Shown here: positions 1,398 through 16,813 of the stretch, in pieces
How the letters are laid out: each line of letters opens with the position of its first letter
Position numbering within the stretch: the first letter of the stretch is position 1
Origin: a bacterium
Lineage (GTDB): Bacteria > Verrucomicrobiota > Verrucomicrobiia > Limisphaerales > UBA11358
Direction: 5' to 3'
Assembly (NCBI GenBank): GCA_021813325.1
Contig: JAKALA010000041.1
Span: 1 to 37,411 of the forward strand
Length of the DNA: 37,411 bases
Position numbers and translations under genes: made by a program
Notes under the pieces: model-generated
Database searches by the model: none
What the model was told of the DNA's origin: nothing
What the model saw: the letters and a program-made list of their open reading frames with translations, nothing else

Positions 1398-3368
1398 TCA
1401 ATAGTTGATCCACAGGTCTTCTGCGCCAAACAATGTCATCCCGAGTGCGCCATTCGGAGCGGTCTGTTTGGCTTGGTCTATCGCATCACTTACATTACGC
1501 CCTCCCGATCCGCCATTGCCCCACCAATCCCAAAACTTGCCAATATATTCCATGTGGGGTGGGAAAAGGCTGCCGCCACTTAAAATACCCGTGCCCACGA
1601 CCTTCTTGCGGTTCCAGCCCATGAACGCGCGTGGGCGGATGCCGCGCTTCTGCGTGAAGTCGGCAACGCTCATTCCTTGTTTTTTCGGAATGCCAAAGGC
1701 TTGAGGCCAGTCCCCATCTGCCGTGTTGCAGCCGTCGAGAAACACGAAACGATACGGGTGCCGGTTTGTGGCCGTGAGCGGGTCGGAAAAATTATTGGCC
1801 AGCAGTTTTTGCACCGCCGCGAGTGTCAGGCCGGCACCCGAACCCAGCTTGGTGCTGCTGCCGTGACCAAAATAGAAGAAGTCGCTAACCCCCACCCAGC
1901 CGAGATTGCTGGAATTGGTCACCACCGCCCATTCGTTGCTTCCCTGAATTTCATACGGCATTACAAATGTGCCCAGACGGTTTTGATGGAATACTTCTTC
2001 AACATTCCAAATGGCGTTCACCATCAGGCGAACCTCGTCTGCCCCCGGTTGCCAGGACTGAAATATCTGTTCGTAACAAACCACCGCGCGGGTGTAATAG
2101 TTCCACGCTGGTTCGATGAATACTTTATCGGTGACCGATGTGTGTGTGGATGGCGGCGTGGTTTCCGGACGGGCCGCCATCACCATCAGGTAGGAAGTGC
2201 TGGGGTTTTGATTTCCGTTGCCATCCGTGTTGTCCAAGCTGAAACCTGGACCGGGAATGCCGGGATAATTGCAATAACCGTCCGCATCTATCGTTCCATC
2301 CAAATACCCCAGATAGGTGTCCTGATCGTCATAAATATCAAGATGCCAGTCGCCGTTGGTGAAAATCGTCTTGAAACCGCCATAGATCGCCACGCCCCCC
2401 ACATTCCACGGGTCAGGCGTATAGATTACATTGGAAACTGTCACCGTAATTGGTGTGTCCGTTGCAACACTGCCGTCATCCAGAAGCGCGCCCAACTGGA
2501 GCGCATATATGCCATTGGTCCCTTGCAATGTATCCCAAACGCCGCTTGCCGATCCAAGCGGATTCAATGTGAAATTCAAAAAGGAAGATCCCGGAATGGT
2601 TGAATCGCTGTCATTATCGGTCAAAAAAACCTGATCAATCGAACGATTCGTATCTGGATTTCCAAACTCGAACCGCAGGGAAATAGTGCCGCTTAATACT
2701 GTTCCGTTAGTTATCCCAACCAAATGAACGCCCGTCCGCACCACCCGGTAAAAACCTGTTTCCGGTTCGGCCAGGGTGCTGCTGGAATTCTCCATCGGGG
2801 TTGGGAAAAATCCGCCGTCCAGTCCGGCCTCCGTGGTTTGCAGTCGGCTTGACAAACTGGCGGTATATTCCGCGCTGCTGCACAGTAGGTCCGTGACCGG
2901 GTCGTAGATGAGGAATTTGGACAGGTCCACGCCGGGCGGATATAACGCCAGCGGCACGGCTGAACCCAAACCGTTCGTTGGTATCGCCAGCAGCATCAGC
3001 GGAAGTAGTGTGGCGGTCGCACTGGAAAGACTCGACAAACCGCCGCCTGAAGCCATCGCCATATAAGAACCGCCGCCAACGGGATTTTGCACGGCGTTGG
3101 TGTGAACGAAGAACGTCAGGTTGGTGCCGCTGTCCGCCGGCCAGTCCGTCGCCAAGGTTTGCCAGCCGTTTGTGTCCGTGAGCGACGGGCGATATTGCAC
3201 GATGTAAGATTCCGTTTCCGCGCTGGGCCACGACAAGACCACATTGCTGACGACCACCGAAATTTTGAGGTCTTCAATGGCGCGGGCTTGAGGAATGACC
3301 GAGGACAGGCAGCAGGCGAGAACACAACCCACTACCAGCTTGCTAATGCTAGACTTGGTAGTTTTCAT
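1398..3368 (-). CDS. Secreted clan CD (caspase/CHAT-like) cysteine peptidase candidate
   Basis: About 656 residues. The ATG at 3368 is preferred because GGAAGAAG lies just upstream and it gives a signal peptide (MKTTKSSISKLVVGCVLACC). Residues 35-90 look like a fibronectin type III-like fold, and FYRVV near residue 205 is a motif common in verrucomicrobial secreted proteins. The C-terminal third carries FFYFGHGSS (His about 502) and, 45 residues on, FVFLDGCNTADG (Cys about 547). This is the order and spacing of the catalytic His-Gly and Asp-x-Cys motifs of clan CD peptidases such as gingipain, caspase and CHAT domains. Peptidase activity is inferred from these motifs only. The substrate is unknown. 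The small secreted gene immediately downstream is a likely partner. An earlier ATG at 3443 is possible but gives no signal peptide. Confidence 0.7.
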   Translation of the reverse strand: MKTTKSSISKLVVGCVLACCLSSVIPQARAIEDLKISVVVSNVVLSWPSAETESYIVQYRPSLTDTNGWQTLATDWPADSGTNLTFFVHTNAVQNPVGGGSYMAMASGGGLSSLSSATATLLPLMLLAIPTNGLGSAVPLALYPPGVDLSKFLIYDPVTDLLCSSAEYTASLSSRLQTTEAGLDGGFFPTPMENSSSTLAEPETGFYRVVRTGVHLVGITNGTVLSGTISLRFEFGNPDTNRSIDQVFLTDNDSDSTIPGSSFLNFTLNPLGSASGVWDTLQGTNGIYALQLGALLDDGSVATDTPITVTVSNVIYTPDPWNVGGVAIYGGFKTIFTNGDWHLDIYDDQDTYLGYLDGTIDADGYCNYPGIPGPGFSLDNTDGNGNQNPSTSYLMVMAARPETTPPSTHTSVTDKVFIEPAWNYYTRAVVCYEQIFQSWQPGADEVRLMVNAIWNVEEVFHQNRLGTFVMPYEIQGSNEWAVVTNSSNLGWVGVSDFFYFGHGSSTKLGSGAGLTLAAVQKLLANNFSDPLTATNRHPYRFVFLDGCNTADGDWPQAFGIPKKQGMSVADFTQKRGIRPRAFMGWNRKKVVGTGILSGGSLFPPHMEYIGKFWDWWGNGGSGGRNVSDAIDQAKQTAPNGALGMTLFGAEDLWINY

Positions 3369-3494
3369 AGCTTCTTCCAGATTAGATTTTTCTGATGAAA
3401 CAGAGCCTGCATCGGTTCTACGCCTATCATAAAAGTGTTTCAAGAGTTTTCTTTGTAATAGTTAGGAGGTCTAATCCACATCCTTCGCGCAAGA

Positions 3495-3546
3495 CTGGCT
3501 GGCTGGCAATTCCCGTTTCCAAGACGACGCCTTGCCAGCCTGCCAG
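3495..3546. repeat. 15-bp imperfect inverted repeat
   Basis: CTGGCTGGCTGGCAA at 3495-3509 pairs with TTGCCAGCCTGCCAG at 3532-3546, one mismatch, with a 22-base spacer. Neither flank is T-rich, so a simple intrinsic terminator is unlikely, although its position upstream of the caspase-like gene allows a structured leader. Confidence 0.6.
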
Positions 3547-3760
3547 ACTCGCGCTCGCCCCTCAAGTTTGAAGGAGACGGCGGATAGTTGACCCTCCAGC
3601 GCAAATTGCCGGGGGCGCTTCCAGGCCAATTTTCCGCCGACTCCGGGCAGTGGTTCAGAAGGTGAGGATTTTAGTCGGGTTGTTTGTCTTCGCCTTTTCT
3701 TGGTGCTGCCGTCACCCCACCGTCTGCTGCTCACTGGTCCGACACCGGGCCGAGATTGGG

Positions 3761-3831
3761 AGCGAAAGCTAAAACCGCGCCAGCGTCGCCACCTCTCCCG
3801 CTCCGCCGCTGTCACGGTTTTAGCTTTCGCT
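3761..3831. repeat. 17-bp perfect inverted repeat with a 37-base spacer
   Basis: AGCGAAAGCTAAAACCG at 3761-3777 is exactly complementary to 3815-3831. Inside the spacer CAGCG (3781-3785) can pair with CGCTG (3807-3811), so the whole 71 bases can fold into one long interrupted hairpin. There is no T tract on either side. It lies upstream of the broken small gene at 3930 and has no protein-coding explanation. Confidence 0.75.
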
Positions 3832-3929
3832 GGGTATTGAATGCATTGCATGCACGGTCCCGCTGTCTCCCGCCAAGGTGAAGCGAGCAGCATACGGCAG
3901 GGTGACGGACAGCGGTTGCAAAAAAAGCT

Positions 3930-4291
3930 ATGAAAACAACCAAGACAACGATTGAAGCGAAACAAGCTCCGGCGAATGTCCGGCCATCGTCGGTTTCAAA
4001 ACACCAAGCCAACCGGGGCTTGTCCACCGCTGCGGTCTTGAATCTTTTACGGAAGAAGTTGCCCCAGCAATACGAACTGGCGGAGGTCGTCGGCAAGTGG
4101 GTTTGGCTGGAGGTTTCCCCGGCACGGCAGCCAATGCTCGCCAAAATGCCTTGGGCACTTGGTTTTCATTGAACCAGCGCCGGGGCGTGTGGCAACATCC
4201 CTGCGGCAAGTTTGACCCCATTGGCTCCCATCCCACGGACCCGCGCTCGAAGTATCGCTCATTCTTTCCGGCGGATGTCCTACCGGCTTGA
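3930..4291 (+). pseudogene. Small mobile-element-type protein split by a one-base frameshift
   Basis: The first frame (3930-4172) encodes 80 residues with LPQQYELAEVVGKWVWLEV near residue 44 and ends at GFH followed by TGA. The continuation is in the next frame (from 4172): NQRRGVWQHPCGKFDPIG, then DPRSKYRSFFPADVLPA, stop near 4291. Joined as GFH-W-NQRRGVWQHPCG the two halves make one continuous protein of about 120 residues. The missing residue would be Trp: TGG AAC has become TGAAC at 4170-4174, so one G is lost. From memory, proteins of this pattern occur in plasmid and integrated-element gene sets of planctomycetes, verrucomicrobia and others; the function is unknown to me. It may be a true pseudogene or a sequencing error. 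Confidence 0.7.
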
Positions 4292-12466: not shown

Positions 12467-14200
12467 TCATGGCTTCGGGGCATCTTTGTCAGCTTGCTGC
12501 GCCGATGATGCCGACTCTGGCGTCAGTAACTGAGCGGGTTGGTTGGAGTGCTGGGTTTGATTTGGATGCACGGTATTGGCCCTGCGATGATTGGACCAGG
12601 CCAACGGAATAACAATGATAGCCGCCAATGTGGCTGCCCCGATAATCCCAATTTTTGTTCCTTTGGTTACAAAGGGACCACCGGATTTATTCTTAAACCA
12701 GAGGGTCACGACGACGGCAATGCCCGCCGCCAGGACGAACAGGAACAAACCCATCAGCAATTTACCCTGCCAGCCGAATACTTCAAAATCACGGCCTTGA
12801 ACGTAGGTGGGACACTCGATTCTCTTTTCGGCCAGTAAGGAAAGGGTTGCCTTGTCCGCTGGGGCTATGAATTTGAAAAATTTGCCGTTTTCCTGAAGTC
12901 TGATCCAAAGTTCATCGTAGGAATCTTTGTAGGTTTTAAAAGCAGAATGGTAATGAAAACGCATCACATAAAACTGAGCATCCGGGTTGTTTTCCTGGAT
13001 GATTTTATCGGCTTGCGCACTGGAAATTCTGGCGATGCTTCCATTGGTGTCCGAAAGGGCGAGCACGAAGAACGACGCGGCCACAATCATCGCCAGCGCA
13101 ATGGCCCAGATGAAAATGTTTTTAATTCGAGTGCTCAATGATTTTTCGGCCACGCCCTGCTTGCGCACTTTGCGTCGCTGATAGATCCAAAGCCCTAAGG
13201 ACAAAGCGACCACCCCGTAAAGAACATCCAGCCAGATTCTCATGCCCGTCAGAAAATGTTCCTTGGAACCAAACAGCATCATTAATGGCGCATAGAGCAA
13301 CACGGGCAGCAGAACGAATAAAATCATGCAGATGGCCAGAGTTCCCCAAAAACGAGCAGTGACATTCCTTTGCTCCTCCGAATGGACTGAGTCGCCGCCC
13401 ATTTTATAACCGAGCCAGCCGCCCAATGAAACAAATGGAGCGATGGGAATGATGATTTTGAGGAGCGATTGCAGCACCGCGCCAAGGCCGGTTGCTATTG
13501 GTCCACTTTTGGCCACGGCCGTTCCTGCCGTCGCCGCTTTGGCGGTGGTGGCCAATAACGGCAGAGCTCCAAGCACCCCAAGGGTGAAGGCCTTGCCCGG
13601 ATTGGTCTGCTTCAAGGCACCTTCCACAAAGGAGAGAACCTGTTCCTGCAACATTTTCCGCCCGCGTGAAAGCCGCTGATGCACAACCTCGTCGCTTAAT
13701 CCCAGCGCCTGTGCCACGTGTTCGACGGATTGGTTTTCGCGATAAAACAGCACCAGCGGCTCGCGGTAAATGGCGGGAATGCGTTCCAGCGTATGCCAGA
13801 GAATGGCCTGTTCCTCGCGGGTGATGATGTATTCAACCGGCAGCGGTTCGGGTGAATGGGATTCCTCGGCGTTTTCCAAGGGTTCAGCTTGATGAATAGG
13901 TTTCCGGCCTTCCCGTCGCAGGAAATCATTGATGCGATTGCGGGCAATTCCGCCCAGCCAGCTTCGCAATTTGTCGCGTTCCCGCAGATGTGTGAGATGT
14001 TTCCAGGCCGTGATGAAGGTTTCCTGGGCGAGATCCTCGCTCTGTCCCAGACTGCCGGTGGCGCTGTAGGCCAGAGAGCAAATCAGGGATTGGTAACGGG
14101 CGACGATTTGTCCGAAGGCGTCGCGGTTGCCCGACAAGGTTTCGCCCACCAGCTCGGCGTCGGTTAGCTGGGAAACGTTCATGGTTGATGCAGTGATCAT
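12467..14200 (-). CDS. ECF-type sigma-70 factor fused to a multi-pass membrane domain (copy A)
   Basis: 577 residues. Residues 10-95 are sigma region 2 (DAFGQIVARYQSLICSLAYS; EDLAQETFITAWKHL), residues 135-190 region 4 (IYREPLVLFYRENQSVEHVA; VVHQRLSRGRKMLQ). The helix-turn-helix is intact, so promoter recognition should work. After residue 205 come several hydrophobic segments (about 240-265, 285-312, 325-343, 363-386, 480-502, 515-535) and, between 387 and 475, a soluble domain (AQADKIIQENNPDAQFYVM; SYDELWIRLQENGKFFKF) that may face the periplasm as a sensor. No anti-sigma gene is adjacent; the membrane part may hold or release the sigma domain (inference). Start is ATG 14200 or the in-frame ATG at 14182. 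Paralogue of the gene at 15145. Confidence 0.85.
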   Translation of the reverse strand: MITASTMNVSQLTDAELVGETLSGNRDAFGQIVARYQSLICSLAYSATGSLGQSEDLAQETFITAWKHLTHLRERDKLRSWLGGIARNRINDFLRREGRKPIHQAEPLENAEESHSPEPLPVEYIITREEQAILWHTLERIPAIYREPLVLFYRENQSVEHVAQALGLSDEVVHQRLSRGRKMLQEQVLSFVEGALKQTNPGKAFTLGVLGALPLLATTAKAATAGTAVAKSGPIATGLGAVLQSLLKIIIPIAPFVSLGGWLGYKMGGDSVHSEEQRNVTARFWGTLAICMILFVLLPVLLYAPLMMLFGSKEHFLTGMRIWLDVLYGVVALSLGLWIYQRRKVRKQGVAEKSLSTRIKNIFIWAIALAMIVAASFFVLALSDTNGSIARISSAQADKIIQENNPDAQFYVMRFHYHSAFKTYKDSYDELWIRLQENGKFFKFIAPADKATLSLLAEKRIECPTYVQGRDFEVFGWQGKLLMGLFLFVLAAGIAVVVTLWFKNKSGGPFVTKGTKIGIIGAATLAAIIVIPLAWSNHRRANTVHPNQTQHSNQPAQLLTPESASSAQQADKDAPKP

Positions 14201-14240
14201 ATCACCGCATAAGTGGTTGGTCAGCGCAGAAAACTGACAA
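14200..14240 (-). promoter_or_regulatory. Conserved upstream element of sigma gene A
   Basis: On the minus strand TTGTCA (14240-14235) is followed after 33 bases by TATGAT containing the first ATG. The same TTGTCA-33-TATGAT arrangement, with a shared CCACTYATGCG block about 18 bases downstream of TTGTCA, precedes sigma gene B. TTGTCA resembles ECF -35 elements (TGTCA-type). This suggests each sigma gene is controlled by the same factor, perhaps itself. If so, the transcript would begin at or beside the first ATG. Confidence 0.5.
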
Positions 14241-14300
14241 ACTATTTTACTAATTCATTGGGTAATAGCTGAAGTTTTTGGTCTGCAAGGTCAAACGGCG

Positions 14301-15140
14301 TTACTCGCCGTTGAGCTTTGCCTGGAGCGAGGGGGCGTTCGGGAATTTTTGAGCCCCAAGTCGCCACGTGGCTGCGGCATACTCGGGTTGCCCCAGCTTT
14401 TGATATTGGTTGCCGAGGAGGACATATGATTGCGCGAATTGCGGTTCTGAAGACATCTTTTCCTGTTGATCAATCAGCCTAGACAATCTTTGGACCACCT
14501 CCTCGCTTTTGTTCAATTCAAGCGGCCAATGTGACATGGCTGCCACCTTGAAAAATTGCGCTTCCCAGTTGTTGGGATCGAGTTCAAGGGCGGCATCAAA
14601 GTTTTGATCAGCCTGCATTCCGAGGATGCCCATTTCGCTAATCTTTCCACCATTTTCAAGAATGACTTCCGCCTTTTGCAGTTGAGCCTGTCCCAGTTCA
14701 GCGGGGTAAAAGACAGAATCCGGATGGTCGGTAATGCCCTGTTTCAGAGCTGCAATGGCCTGATCCAGCTGGCCGGCTTTTCGCAATTGATTCCACACTT
14801 CGTGCTTCTGCAGGAAACTGGCATTCGTTGAAACCAATGTTTCAATGGCCCGCGAGATGGCTGTGGGCGCTGGAGCTGGGCTGGCTGCTTGATCTGATAA
14901 AGCTGGATTCAAAGCGACTCCAGCCGCTGACTCATGGGCTCCTGCCGCTGCGTTCTCTGAAATCGGCCGGGGTGATTTTTCTTTCAGCGCGACGGTCTTT
15001 GACGTCATCAAAATTTCCTGGTTCGTCAGCGTTTCAGCATTGGCTGCTGGAGAGTGCGGTGCTCCATGACGGCTCAAATACACCGTGGTTCCGGCCACGC
15101 AAGTGATACCAAGGGCTATAAGCATAGTTGAGGTTTTCAT
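14301..15140 (-). CDS. Membrane-anchored or secreted TPR protein linked to the sigma factors
   Basis: 279 residues. N terminus MKTSTMLIALGITCVAGTTV is a signal peptide or anchor, followed by a Ser/Ala/Pro-rich linker to about residue 90. Residues 110-275 form TPR-like helices (WNQLRKAGQLDQAIAALKQG; NFDAALELDPNNWEAQFFKV; VLLGNQYQKLGQPEYAAATW). It starts 4 bases after the stop of sigma gene B, so the two are translationally coupled, and it lies 100 bases upstream of sigma gene A. An extracytoplasmic TPR partner for the membrane-fused sigma factors is a reasonable inference; no direct evidence for contact. Confidence 0.8.
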   Translation of the reverse strand: MKTSTMLIALGITCVAGTTVYLSRHGAPHSPAANAETLTNQEILMTSKTVALKEKSPRPISENAAAGAHESAAGVALNPALSDQAASPAPAPTAISRAIETLVSTNASFLQKHEVWNQLRKAGQLDQAIAALKQGITDHPDSVFYPAELGQAQLQKAEVILENGGKISEMGILGMQADQNFDAALELDPNNWEAQFFKVAAMSHWPLELNKSEEVVQRLSRLIDQQEKMSSEPQFAQSYVLLGNQYQKLGQPEYAAATWRLGAQKFPNAPSLQAKLNGE

Positions 15141-15144
15141 AAAC

Positions 15145-16773
15145 TTATTCAGGACGAGCCTGCGTTGAATTATGTTTGCGCGTGACCAGCCACAGGATTG
15201 AAAACGGAATGATCCAGAAAAGATTCAGCCACTGCCAATGCCGGGAAACGAATTCAGCGCCGCGGAAGAACGGATTTGGAAAAATAGCCTGCCTGGCAAT
15301 GTCGGTATTGGCCTGCGCGGCATGGACGAAGCGTCCAAGGCCATGGTCATGGGCCAGGGCAAACAATCCCACGGACGCATTCCATCCGACGGCATAGCAC
15401 TCGTTGAATGCCTGCCAGCCGATTCCCAGTCCGCCGAACAAAGGCCAGACTCCCAGCGCGATGCCGCCTAGCGCGACGACCCCGATGCCCAACGCGCCAA
15501 ACGAAAGCACACCCACCGCAAAGCCGCCGAAACTGACCGGCGCAATCGCCCACGCACCCATGGCAAACAATCCGCCTAGCGCACGATCGCCAATCGCAAT
15601 CCACGCTTTCACCGGCGGTTTCAAGAGATTGAATCGTCCGCCAATGCGGATGTGCATAAGCGGCAACCCAAGCAGTTTTGTTTCGGTGCAGAATTCCCAA
15701 ATTGGTCTGGGGAGAATGCCAGCGCACTGCTCGTTCAAAGCCCGGGTCAGTTTTTCCTGGTTCCTTCGCGAACTGGCGGCAGCCAGAATGAAGATGGTCG
15801 GCACAAAGATCACCACCAGGCTGGCGGTAAGCATGCCCGATAAATAGGAACGATCCGTCTGATCTCTGGACCACCACAAAATTGCAATGGCAAACGGAAT
15901 GAACACAGCTAGGGTGATGATGGCGAGCTTTCCGAACAGAGATTGAACCTGACGCCGCTCCTCTTGCGACTGGGATCCAGCTAGTGTGACGCGATATGCA
16001 ATGTAATTAGGCACCAGGACATACAGCGGACCGAGCAGTGCGGCTAGCCCGCCAAAGGTGCCAGTTGCTTTGGCAGTTGTGCCTTTGGCAACCGCGCCGA
16101 TGGCCGCCGCCTTGACTGAGAACGTCAACCCGGGCAATGAGGCCAGCACGGCCAGGGTAAATGCTCTTTCTGGCCTCGTCCGCTCCAGCGCGCCTTCGAC
16201 GAACTCGAGAACCTGCTCCTGCAACAACTTTCGTCCGCGCGAAAGGCGCTGCTTCACGGCATCCTCCGTTAAGTCCAACGATGCCGCGACAGTTTCAATG
16301 GACTGCTGTTCGCGGTAAAACAGCACCAGCGGCTCGCGATAGGTTTCCGGAATGCGTTCCAATGCGCGCCAGAGAATGGCCTGCTCTTCGTTGCTGATGG
16401 TGCGGTCCACGGGCAGAGGCTCGGGGGAGTGGCTTTCGGCAACTTCTTCAAGCGGCGTGGCCTCGCGAATGGGTTCGCGGCCTTCACGGCGGAGAAAACC
16501 ATTGATCCGATTCCGGGCAATGCCGCAAAGCCAGGCGCGCAGTTTGTCGTGTTCGCGCAAATGGCCGAGATGTTTCCAGGCGGAGATGAACGTTTCCTGG
16601 GCGAGATCTTCGCTCTGACCCAGACTGCCCGTGGCGCTGTAGGCCAGCGAGCAAATCAAAGATTGATAGCGGGAAACAATCTGCCCGAAGGCATCGCGAT
16701 TCCCCAACAGCGTCAAGCTGACCAGTTCGGCATCGGTTTGGAGAGCGACGGACATTGATTTGGTTGTCATCAT
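15145..16773 (-). CDS. ECF-type sigma-70 factor fused to a multi-pass, Gly-rich membrane domain (copy B)
   Basis: 542 residues from the ATG at 16773, chosen by alignment with copy A (ATG 16755 also possible; the frame extends to 16899 without homology). Region 2 (DAFGQIVSRYQSLICSLAYS; EDLAQETFISAWKHLGHL) and region 4 (TYREPLVLFYREQQSIETVA; AVKQRLSRGRKLLQEQVLEF) are nearly identical to copy A. The membrane part differs: three or four helices at about 210-330, then WEFCTETKLLGLPLMHIRIG near 360 and a run of Gly-Ala hydrophobic repeats (FGGFAVGVLSFGALGIGVVA; LGGIALGVWPLFGGLGIG) near 405-455, and a final helix. The leading segment and Gly repeat match a widespread, uncharacterised membrane domain. 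Role: envelope-linked gene regulation, by inference. Confidence 0.85.
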   Translation of the reverse strand: MMTTKSMSVALQTDAELVSLTLLGNRDAFGQIVSRYQSLICSLAYSATGSLGQSEDLAQETFISAWKHLGHLREHDKLRAWLCGIARNRINGFLRREGREPIREATPLEEVAESHSPEPLPVDRTISNEEQAILWRALERIPETYREPLVLFYREQQSIETVAASLDLTEDAVKQRLSRGRKLLQEQVLEFVEGALERTRPERAFTLAVLASLPGLTFSVKAAAIGAVAKGTTAKATGTFGGLAALLGPLYVLVPNYIAYRVTLAGSQSQEERRQVQSLFGKLAIITLAVFIPFAIAILWWSRDQTDRSYLSGMLTASLVVIFVPTIFILAAASSRRNQEKLTRALNEQCAGILPRPIWEFCTETKLLGLPLMHIRIGGRFNLLKPPVKAWIAIGDRALGGLFAMGAWAIAPVSFGGFAVGVLSFGALGIGVVALGGIALGVWPLFGGLGIGWQAFNECYAVGWNASVGLFALAHDHGLGRFVHAAQANTDIARQAIFPNPFFRGAEFVSRHWQWLNLFWIIPFSILWLVTRKHNSTQARPE

Positions 16774-16813
16774 AACGTCGCATGAGTGGCTGAAAAGCCC
16801 GAAGAGGTGACAA
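16773..16813 (-). promoter_or_regulatory. Conserved upstream element of sigma gene B
   Basis: TTGTCA at 16813-16808 on the minus strand, exactly 33 bases before TATGAT, with CCACTCATGCG between; same geometry as upstream of sigma gene A. Homology across this noncoding block between two genes whose C-terminal halves differ argues for a preserved promoter, although recent duplication could also explain it. 16814-17038 beyond it shows no gene. Confidence 0.5.

Follow-up and report, generated by a model that had tools for sequence, protein, structure and literature searches.

The locus and its two sigma factor genes

The window analyzed here, positions 1 to 37,411 of contig JAKALA010000041.1 of assembly GCA_021813325.1, is part of a 4.28-Mb genome whose named relatives are mostly Verrucomicrobiota. 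On its minus strand lie two paralogous sigma factor genes, here called B and A, with a gene for a tetratricopeptide repeat (TPR) protein between them (Table 1). Both sigma factors were read as one-protein, membrane-anchored signaling modules of the extracytoplasmic function (ECF) type, which would promote their own expression, be insulated from each other and carry exchangeable tails; we put the probability of this reading at roughly 0.6.

The genes and their order, as given in the initial annotation, were borne out by the list of open reading frames (ORFs) and by Pfam, with TPR_14 above its cut-off in the middle gene. Sigma70_r2 and Sigma70_r4_2 exceeded their cut-offs in both A and B and were the sole models to do so; regions 2 and 4 are thus intact, and by the criterion of region 2 plus region 4 only, A and B are ECF (group IV) sigma factors. 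In a fold search, residues 11-103 of the B model matched SigW (Z 15.6, root-mean-square deviation 2.9, 93 residues aligned), and sigmaE was also matched. The start of A is probably the ATG at 14200, since it lies 9 nt past the -10 element of A, exactly the spacing found in B. The two regions had been called nearly identical, which was an overstatement: A and B share 86% of residues 14-104 and 73% of residues 129-190 (78% over 14-190). Past residue 190 the identity drops, to 64% for linker residues 191-215, 27% for residues 216-345 (membrane core) and 18% for the tails, in agreement with the claim that the C-terminal halves differ.

The announced 4-base gap between B and the TPR gene was found at 15141-15144. 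Likewise, no anti-sigma gene was present among the scanned flanks, which encode a DUF167 protein, a PD40 propeller, a TIM barrel, an insertion sequence (IS) transposase, a GDSL hydrolase and a pyridine-nucleotide oxidoreductase. The transposase gene (PF01609, PF05598; 11067-12038, plus strand) is the next one beyond A.

Within its own genome, B matched 21 places at E ≤ 0.001, of which the family comprises A and B only (next best E 5e-16). Seven further long sigma proteins of this genome (L011-L016, L019) combine a hydrophobic helix with C-terminal parts that vary and were assigned by eye to a different family. With a threshold of E ≤ 1e-30 to B and the own genome counted in both cases, matches were obtained in 20 of 40 genomes and in 58 of the 245 genomes of the order. 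Among the contigs of GTDB, 348 candidate stretches contained 313 relatives, and the best 80 of these 313, corresponding to 79 loci, were retained. They were mostly from Verrucomicrobiota, with others from Gammaproteobacteria (Thalassotalea, Colwellia, Teredinibacter, Gilvimarinus, Dokdonella and others) and one contig labelled Planctomycetales. The loci used held 158 family ORFs above 120 bits, which were reduced to 126 distinct members by removing identical ends, near relatives remaining. Their tails were of type B in 90, A in 10, C (multi-helix) in seven and D in one, and were of another kind or too short in 18. The proposal of a one-protein module that was duplicated and had its C-terminal part exchanged was strengthened by these four tail kinds, with 18 unassigned, on one sigma-plus-linker frame.

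Table 1. Position and basis of the features described in the text.
Feature	Position	Strand	Basis
Promoter of B: TGTCAC 16812-16807, CACTCA 16788-16783, ATG 9 nt on	16783..16812	-	
Sigma factor B, 542 aa (P0002)	15145..16773	-	ORF calls, Pfam
B region 2, residues 33-99	16477..16677	-	Pfam PF04542, 9.7e-16
B region 4, residues 133-184	16222..16377	-	Pfam PF08281, 4.2e-11
B codon 174 (Lys), candidate promoter-specificity residue	16252..16254	-	Covariation; structural contact of aligned residue
B membrane core, residues 237-333: one weaker hydrophobic helix and a two-helix hairpin	15775..16065	-	AlphaFold2 helices; hydropathy and charge, 70 sequences
B Gly-pentad domain, residues 359-484, predicted beta-solenoid	15322..15699	-	AlphaFold2 strands; conserved Gly
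B terminal hydrophobic helix, residues 513-539	15157..15237	-	AlphaFold2; hydropathy profile
TPR protein with N-terminal hydrophobic anchor, 279 aa (P0003)	14301..15140	-	Cotranscribed with B by position
Promoter of A: TGTCAG 14239-14234, CACTTA 14215-14210, ATG 9 nt on	14210..14239	-	
Sigma factor A, 577 aa from ATG 14200 (P0001 is the 571-aa version, ATG 14182)	12467..14200	-	
A region 2	13904..14104	-	Pfam PF04542, 8.2e-17
A region 4	13649..13804	-	Pfam PF08281, 2.6e-8
A codon 174 (His; 577-aa numbering; residue 168 of P0001)	13679..13681	-	Alignment
A tail unit: helix, outer FtsH_ext-like domain, helix	12683..13123	-	Profile, model, hhalign
Gly-pentad domain on Ser/Thr kinases	L291 2389-5499; L292 251-3301; L293 1310-3631; L294 996-2711		
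Small proteins with Gly-pentad domain	L287-L289, L295, L296		

Putative self-promoter and its covariation with residue 174

Directly before their own ATG, most members of the family carry the consensus TGTCAC-N18-CACTTA. The promoter analysis covered the 121 of 126 members with 230 nt of upstream sequence, and TGTCA was present in 107 of these regions, compared with 17.8% of shuffled ones; ten of the other 14 read CGTCAC, GGTCAC or AGTCAC. To avoid circularity, we used the regions in which GTCA[C/G] stands just once within a set stretch (104 in all) and looked for CAC 15-35 nt further on. It was found at an offset of 24 in 55 regions, 23 in 17 and 21 in five, with two other offsets occurring once each. 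The -35 part was present in all tail classes and in Verrucomicrobiota and Gammaproteobacteria alike, and the -10 part was weak in classes C and D. The first in-frame ATG was at most 15 nt from the site in 89 of the 100 supported members (exactly 9 nt in 45, as in A and B), and the transcripts are therefore probably leaderless. A matrix built from 74 sites gave 114 matches above 13 in the family loci and five in reversed sequence; many of these sites had entered its training, so that the matches outside the family are the informative ones. Above 10 there were 132 matches, 92 near family genes and 40 elsewhere, with 26 in the control.

The residue of the region-4 recognition helix that precedes QRLSRG, at position 174 in both proteins, is Lys in B, with TGTCAC, and His in A, with TGTCAG. 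For a second pass, a site was called supported when CAC, or T and A, stood at fixed places, by which 21 of the 121 regions were set aside; 99 members had such a site and a readable helix. His was paired with xGTCAG in six of them (five TGTCAG, one CGTCAG) and never with another sequence, while a residue other than His was paired with xGTCAG in one and with other sequences in 92, all xGTCAC except for one GGTCAA (Fisher test, 6e-9, overstated because the rows are related). The true exception was L091_1, with xGTCAG and Leu. In the first pass, without the -10 requirement, the four counts were 6, 0, 4 and 106; of its exceptions, L104 and L230 turned out to have TGTCAC once the supported site was used, L094, also TGTCAC, had no supported -10 and was dropped, and L091_1 stayed. 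A weaker association of Arg-174 with a first base other than T (5/19, against 5/73 for Lys, p 0.03) was also seen, on which no claim is made.

On the tree, the His/G state had at least two origins, with L031 and L075 placed beside a Lys/C pair and the A of the window with L039; the origin in L103 and L041_15 was not settled by the tree. In our own alignment, residue 174 corresponds to R171 of sigmaE and K170 of SigW, which in the solved structures contact G'-31, the partner of the last -35 base (PMC6713349, in part). In this small sample, the genome of each of the six His/G genes also has a Lys/xGTCAC member: the window itself, G007 (L055), the isolate of L063 and L075, G021 (L047), G019 (L060) and MAG_BO64 (L071).

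This covariation is what a working sigma-promoter pair would be expected to show and, together with the conserved promoter, speaks for recognition of the promoter by region 4. That the promoter is kept by mere descent was disfavored, because the last -35 base follows residue 174 on different branches. A and B are probably insulated from each other, since residue and base changed together (Lys/C in B, His/G in A), and the occurrence of His/G beside Lys/C in the same genomes would fit such insulation of paralogues. Promoter and covariation, both missed by the initial annotation, are the strongest evidence that these are working, insulated regulators.

C-terminal halves of B and A

AlphaFold2 predicted mostly beta strands for B residues 359-484, with a predicted local distance difference test (pLDDT) of 92-98 (70 sequences), which contradicted the description of this tail as a Gly-rich multi-pass domain. 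Gly is conserved at 406, 416, 421, 426, 431, 436, 441, 447 and 452, position 411 not being Gly; in the 70 sequences the spacing is mostly five residues, with a spectral peak at 5.3, and charge is nearly nil at 401-450. The domain is probably a beta-solenoid on the cytoplasmic side. When the whole B model was used in the fold search, the match lists were filled by the sigma half. Among 13 B tails scanned no Pfam relative was found, and a profile of the tails gave only chance-like matches to PDB sequences (best E 0.21). Despite the Gly at about every fifth residue, the pentapeptide-repeat model (PF00805) did not match A, B or the 13 tails. Anti-sigma models matched neither A nor B at E ≤ 1, nor the same 13 tails.

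A survey of 288 genomes of the phylum found the Gly-pentad domain in 23, one of them the own genome. From 27 domain matches, ten regions were taken, chosen for frames unlike sigma proteins: four encode Ser/Thr kinases (PF00069) with the domain after the kinase, five encode small proteins, and one encodes a protein with an unassigned N-terminal part. Locus L082 encodes, upstream of a B-type sigma gene, a protein (2149-4116) that likewise combines kinase motifs with the Gly-pentad domain. If all four hydrophobic segments of B spanned the membrane, the positive-inside rule would be broken. A first core helix that does not span the membrane is the preferred topology, argued rather than proven, because the strongly positive loop after the hairpin in A and the kinase fusions agree with it; in the fusions, no hydrophobic helix was seen between kinase and solenoid.

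The outer domain of A was modeled at low confidence (pLDDT 31-60) in the order H-E-E-E-H-E. The profile of the A tail aligned with the N-termini of FtsH proteins of relatives with an hhalign probability of 80 and a score of 38.5, whereas shuffling the columns 40 times never gave more than 18.2 and reversing the profile gave 17.8; without the helices, the soluble part barely exceeded its shuffles (16.3 against at most 14.0). FtsH proteins ranked at the top of the profile search (E 0.05 and worse), one of 12 A-tail units gave a weak Pfam match to FtsH_ext (PF06480, E 0.096), and only chance-like matches to PDB sequences were obtained (best E 0.38). Taken together, a resemblance of this domain to the periplasmic domain of FtsH has moderate support. 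The positively charged loop that precedes the outer helix suggests that the soluble domain lies outside the membrane. The A tail unit was found in seven of the 245 genomes of the order, the own genome included, with one, two or three copies in relatives. In the same genus, an ORF with Ser/Thr-kinase motifs has an FtsH_ext match above the Pfam cut-off (L144, 2-2134). Locus L041 (3673-10070) holds two family genes with different tails (three FtsH-like units; a D tail), and His with CGTCAG is found there versus Lys with TGTCAC.

Partner genes, proposed mechanism and known systems

A TPR homologue adjoins 18 of the 90 B-type genes, being downstream on the same strand in 15. The sigma/TPR/sigma neighborhood, a count of which had been proposed, did recur in one further genome (L036/L078); the commoner arrangement is B followed by TPR (15/90). 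These TPR proteins start with a hydrophobic stretch. A gene for a CIA30-domain protein (PF08547, 6e-9 and 3e-6 in the two scanned) is divergent from the sigma gene in 20 of 126 members, and its product has, as read by eye, a signal-like hydrophobic start. The best promoter matrix match scored above 13 before 10 of these 20 genes, but before only six of 994 control ORFs with a length of 250 aa or more, and it reads TGTCAC in 16 of the 20. Acyltransferase-3 genes (PF01757 in the one scanned) also recur: members of their sequence cluster were found close to 23 sigma genes, with 19 positions upstream on the opposite strand. On account of these recurrent neighbors, an envelope role is likely.

Searches for distant targets gave little. 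In 20 genomes the exact B site was counted 21 times against eight in the control, eight of the sites being those already known before family or CIA30 genes and the others being distrusted; in the own genome it occurs once. The A-type pattern gave 18 sites in six genomes against 11 in the control, of which the site of A alone was trusted, and it missed the His-type genes of G007, G235, G021 and G019, in which spacing or bases differ. A wide regulon was unsupported at the stringency used. A one-mismatch site before a 335-aa Ser/Thr kinase gene (PF00069) at C38:25711-25740 of the own genome (G000, L249) is doubtful and may be due to chance.

The sequence evidence points to a self-contained circuit made of a sigma factor, its own promoter, a coupled change of specificity, exchangeable tails and recurrent partner genes. 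In the proposed mechanism, the module-specific C-terminal half would anchor the sigma factor in the inner membrane and hold it inactive there. The tail would receive a signal, on the outer side of the membrane in A and at or under the membrane in B, and the sigma half would be freed or reoriented by proteolysis or a conformational change. Each sigma would recognize the promoter that immediately precedes its gene, B yielding itself and the TPR protein anchored outside the membrane and A yielding itself, and positive autoregulation would amplify the response. Residues 191-215 of B, just past region 4, are the best candidate for a built-in inhibitor, because invariant positions are kept there across tail classes A, B and C (L196, P201, F205, V209, L213 and P214, in 20 of 20 members of an alignment with A, B, C and one other tail).

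Several results weigh against this mechanism. Four of the 121 upstream regions (L112, L117, L137 and L214) are without such a -35 element, and a supported -10 was missing in 21, including most class C members. The family members are related, so that the counts are not independent, and two of the six His-type genes, L031 and L075, are near-identical. With up to one mismatch, the own genome has 12 sites, no more than the reversed pattern gave (12), and ORFs of at least 80 aa cover nine of the 12 sites; apart from the doubtful kinase gene no target besides A and B rose above the control there.

Other explanations were also weighed. The membrane half could be an anchor only, the sigma working unreleased at the membrane with its activity set by expression through positive feedback; the conserved autoregulatory promoter and the lack of an anti-sigma match in A, B and the scanned tails favor this, but we consider it unlikely, as the tails are diverse, the B domain also occurs on Ser/Thr kinases, which suggests sensing, and positive feedback without a check would be expected to lock the system on. 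The tail could instead be a docking site for the true sigma-holding regulator, a neighboring TPR or CIA30 protein or an unlinked one. Such genes do recur by the sigma genes, with a hydrophobic N-terminal stretch in their products, and the CIA30 genes often share the promoter; however, 86 of 126 members have neither neighbor within 1.5 kb (some contigs end sooner), and the TPR and CIA30 proteins, probably outside the membrane while the sigma is inside, look more like targets, which makes this explanation somewhat less probable still. A similarly low weight was given to the view that A is a duplicate in decay. In its favor, the FtsH-like unit is single in A but present two or three times in several relatives, A is followed by no gene of its own, a transposase gene lies next door, and no other A-type site in the genome was trusted; yet the 577-codon frame of A is intact, and the joint change of promoter and residue 174 suggests selection.

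The one-protein module thus remains the preferred reading, and the initial annotation, which had proposed it, was partly supported. A wider proposal is held tentatively, as rather less probable than the module itself: an exchangeable tail toolkit common to Ser/Thr kinases and ECF sigma factors may make complete one-protein signal-to-promoter circuits with their own leaderless promoters, a second copy being split off by the coupled change of residue 174 and the last -35 base pair, and the B tail may be a new Gly-pentad beta-solenoid sensor. The system would offer a compact, genetically tractable case of sigma duplicates possibly escaping crosstalk through one residue and one base pair, a pairing that recurs among related genomes. 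A small number of promoters and sigma factors, each set self-contained and insulated from the others, is predicted from it, and ECF sigma factors and Ser/Thr kinases are linked by a common tail domain that had no sequence relative in Pfam or the PDB in our searches.

In a literature search, no description of the A/B family appeared among the matches listed (titles and starts of abstracts); the reclassification of ECF groups and PMC7671368 were outside its coverage and may describe it. Several known systems can nevertheless be compared. The closest known principle is that of ECF41, the extension of which is soluble and SnoaL-like; SnoaL had no match in A or B at E ≤ 1. According to the excerpts of PMC3426412, ECF41 likewise has a fused C-terminal regulatory extension, a TGTCAC-type -35 and a neighboring gene as sole detectable target, but its promoter is TGTCACA-n16-CGTC, with the -10 CGTC at 16 bp instead of the CACTTA seen here, and the tails described here are membrane-bound and varied. 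IutY (ECF243) similarly combines a sigma and a membrane anti-sigma in one protein, where the sigma is freed by proteolysis (PMC8999054, in part), whereas neither an anti-sigma model nor FecR matched A or B. The ECF48, ECF52 and ECF53 proteins, such as SCO4117, also have a C-terminal transmembrane fusion, but in the parts of the same source they are actinobacterial and carry a zinc-finger anti-sigma domain, and zinc-finger models had no match in A or B at E ≤ 1. In ECF42 the TPR is fused to the sigma (PMC8103513, in part), whereas here it is encoded by a separate gene. SigW/RsiW and RpoE/RseA share the sigma fold, the autoregulation and the -35 contact by the aligned residue, and differ by a separate anti-sigma gene, which is absent next door here. 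Since none of these systems fits as a membership, the family is regarded as a new variant of the ECF sigma factors with fused regulators.

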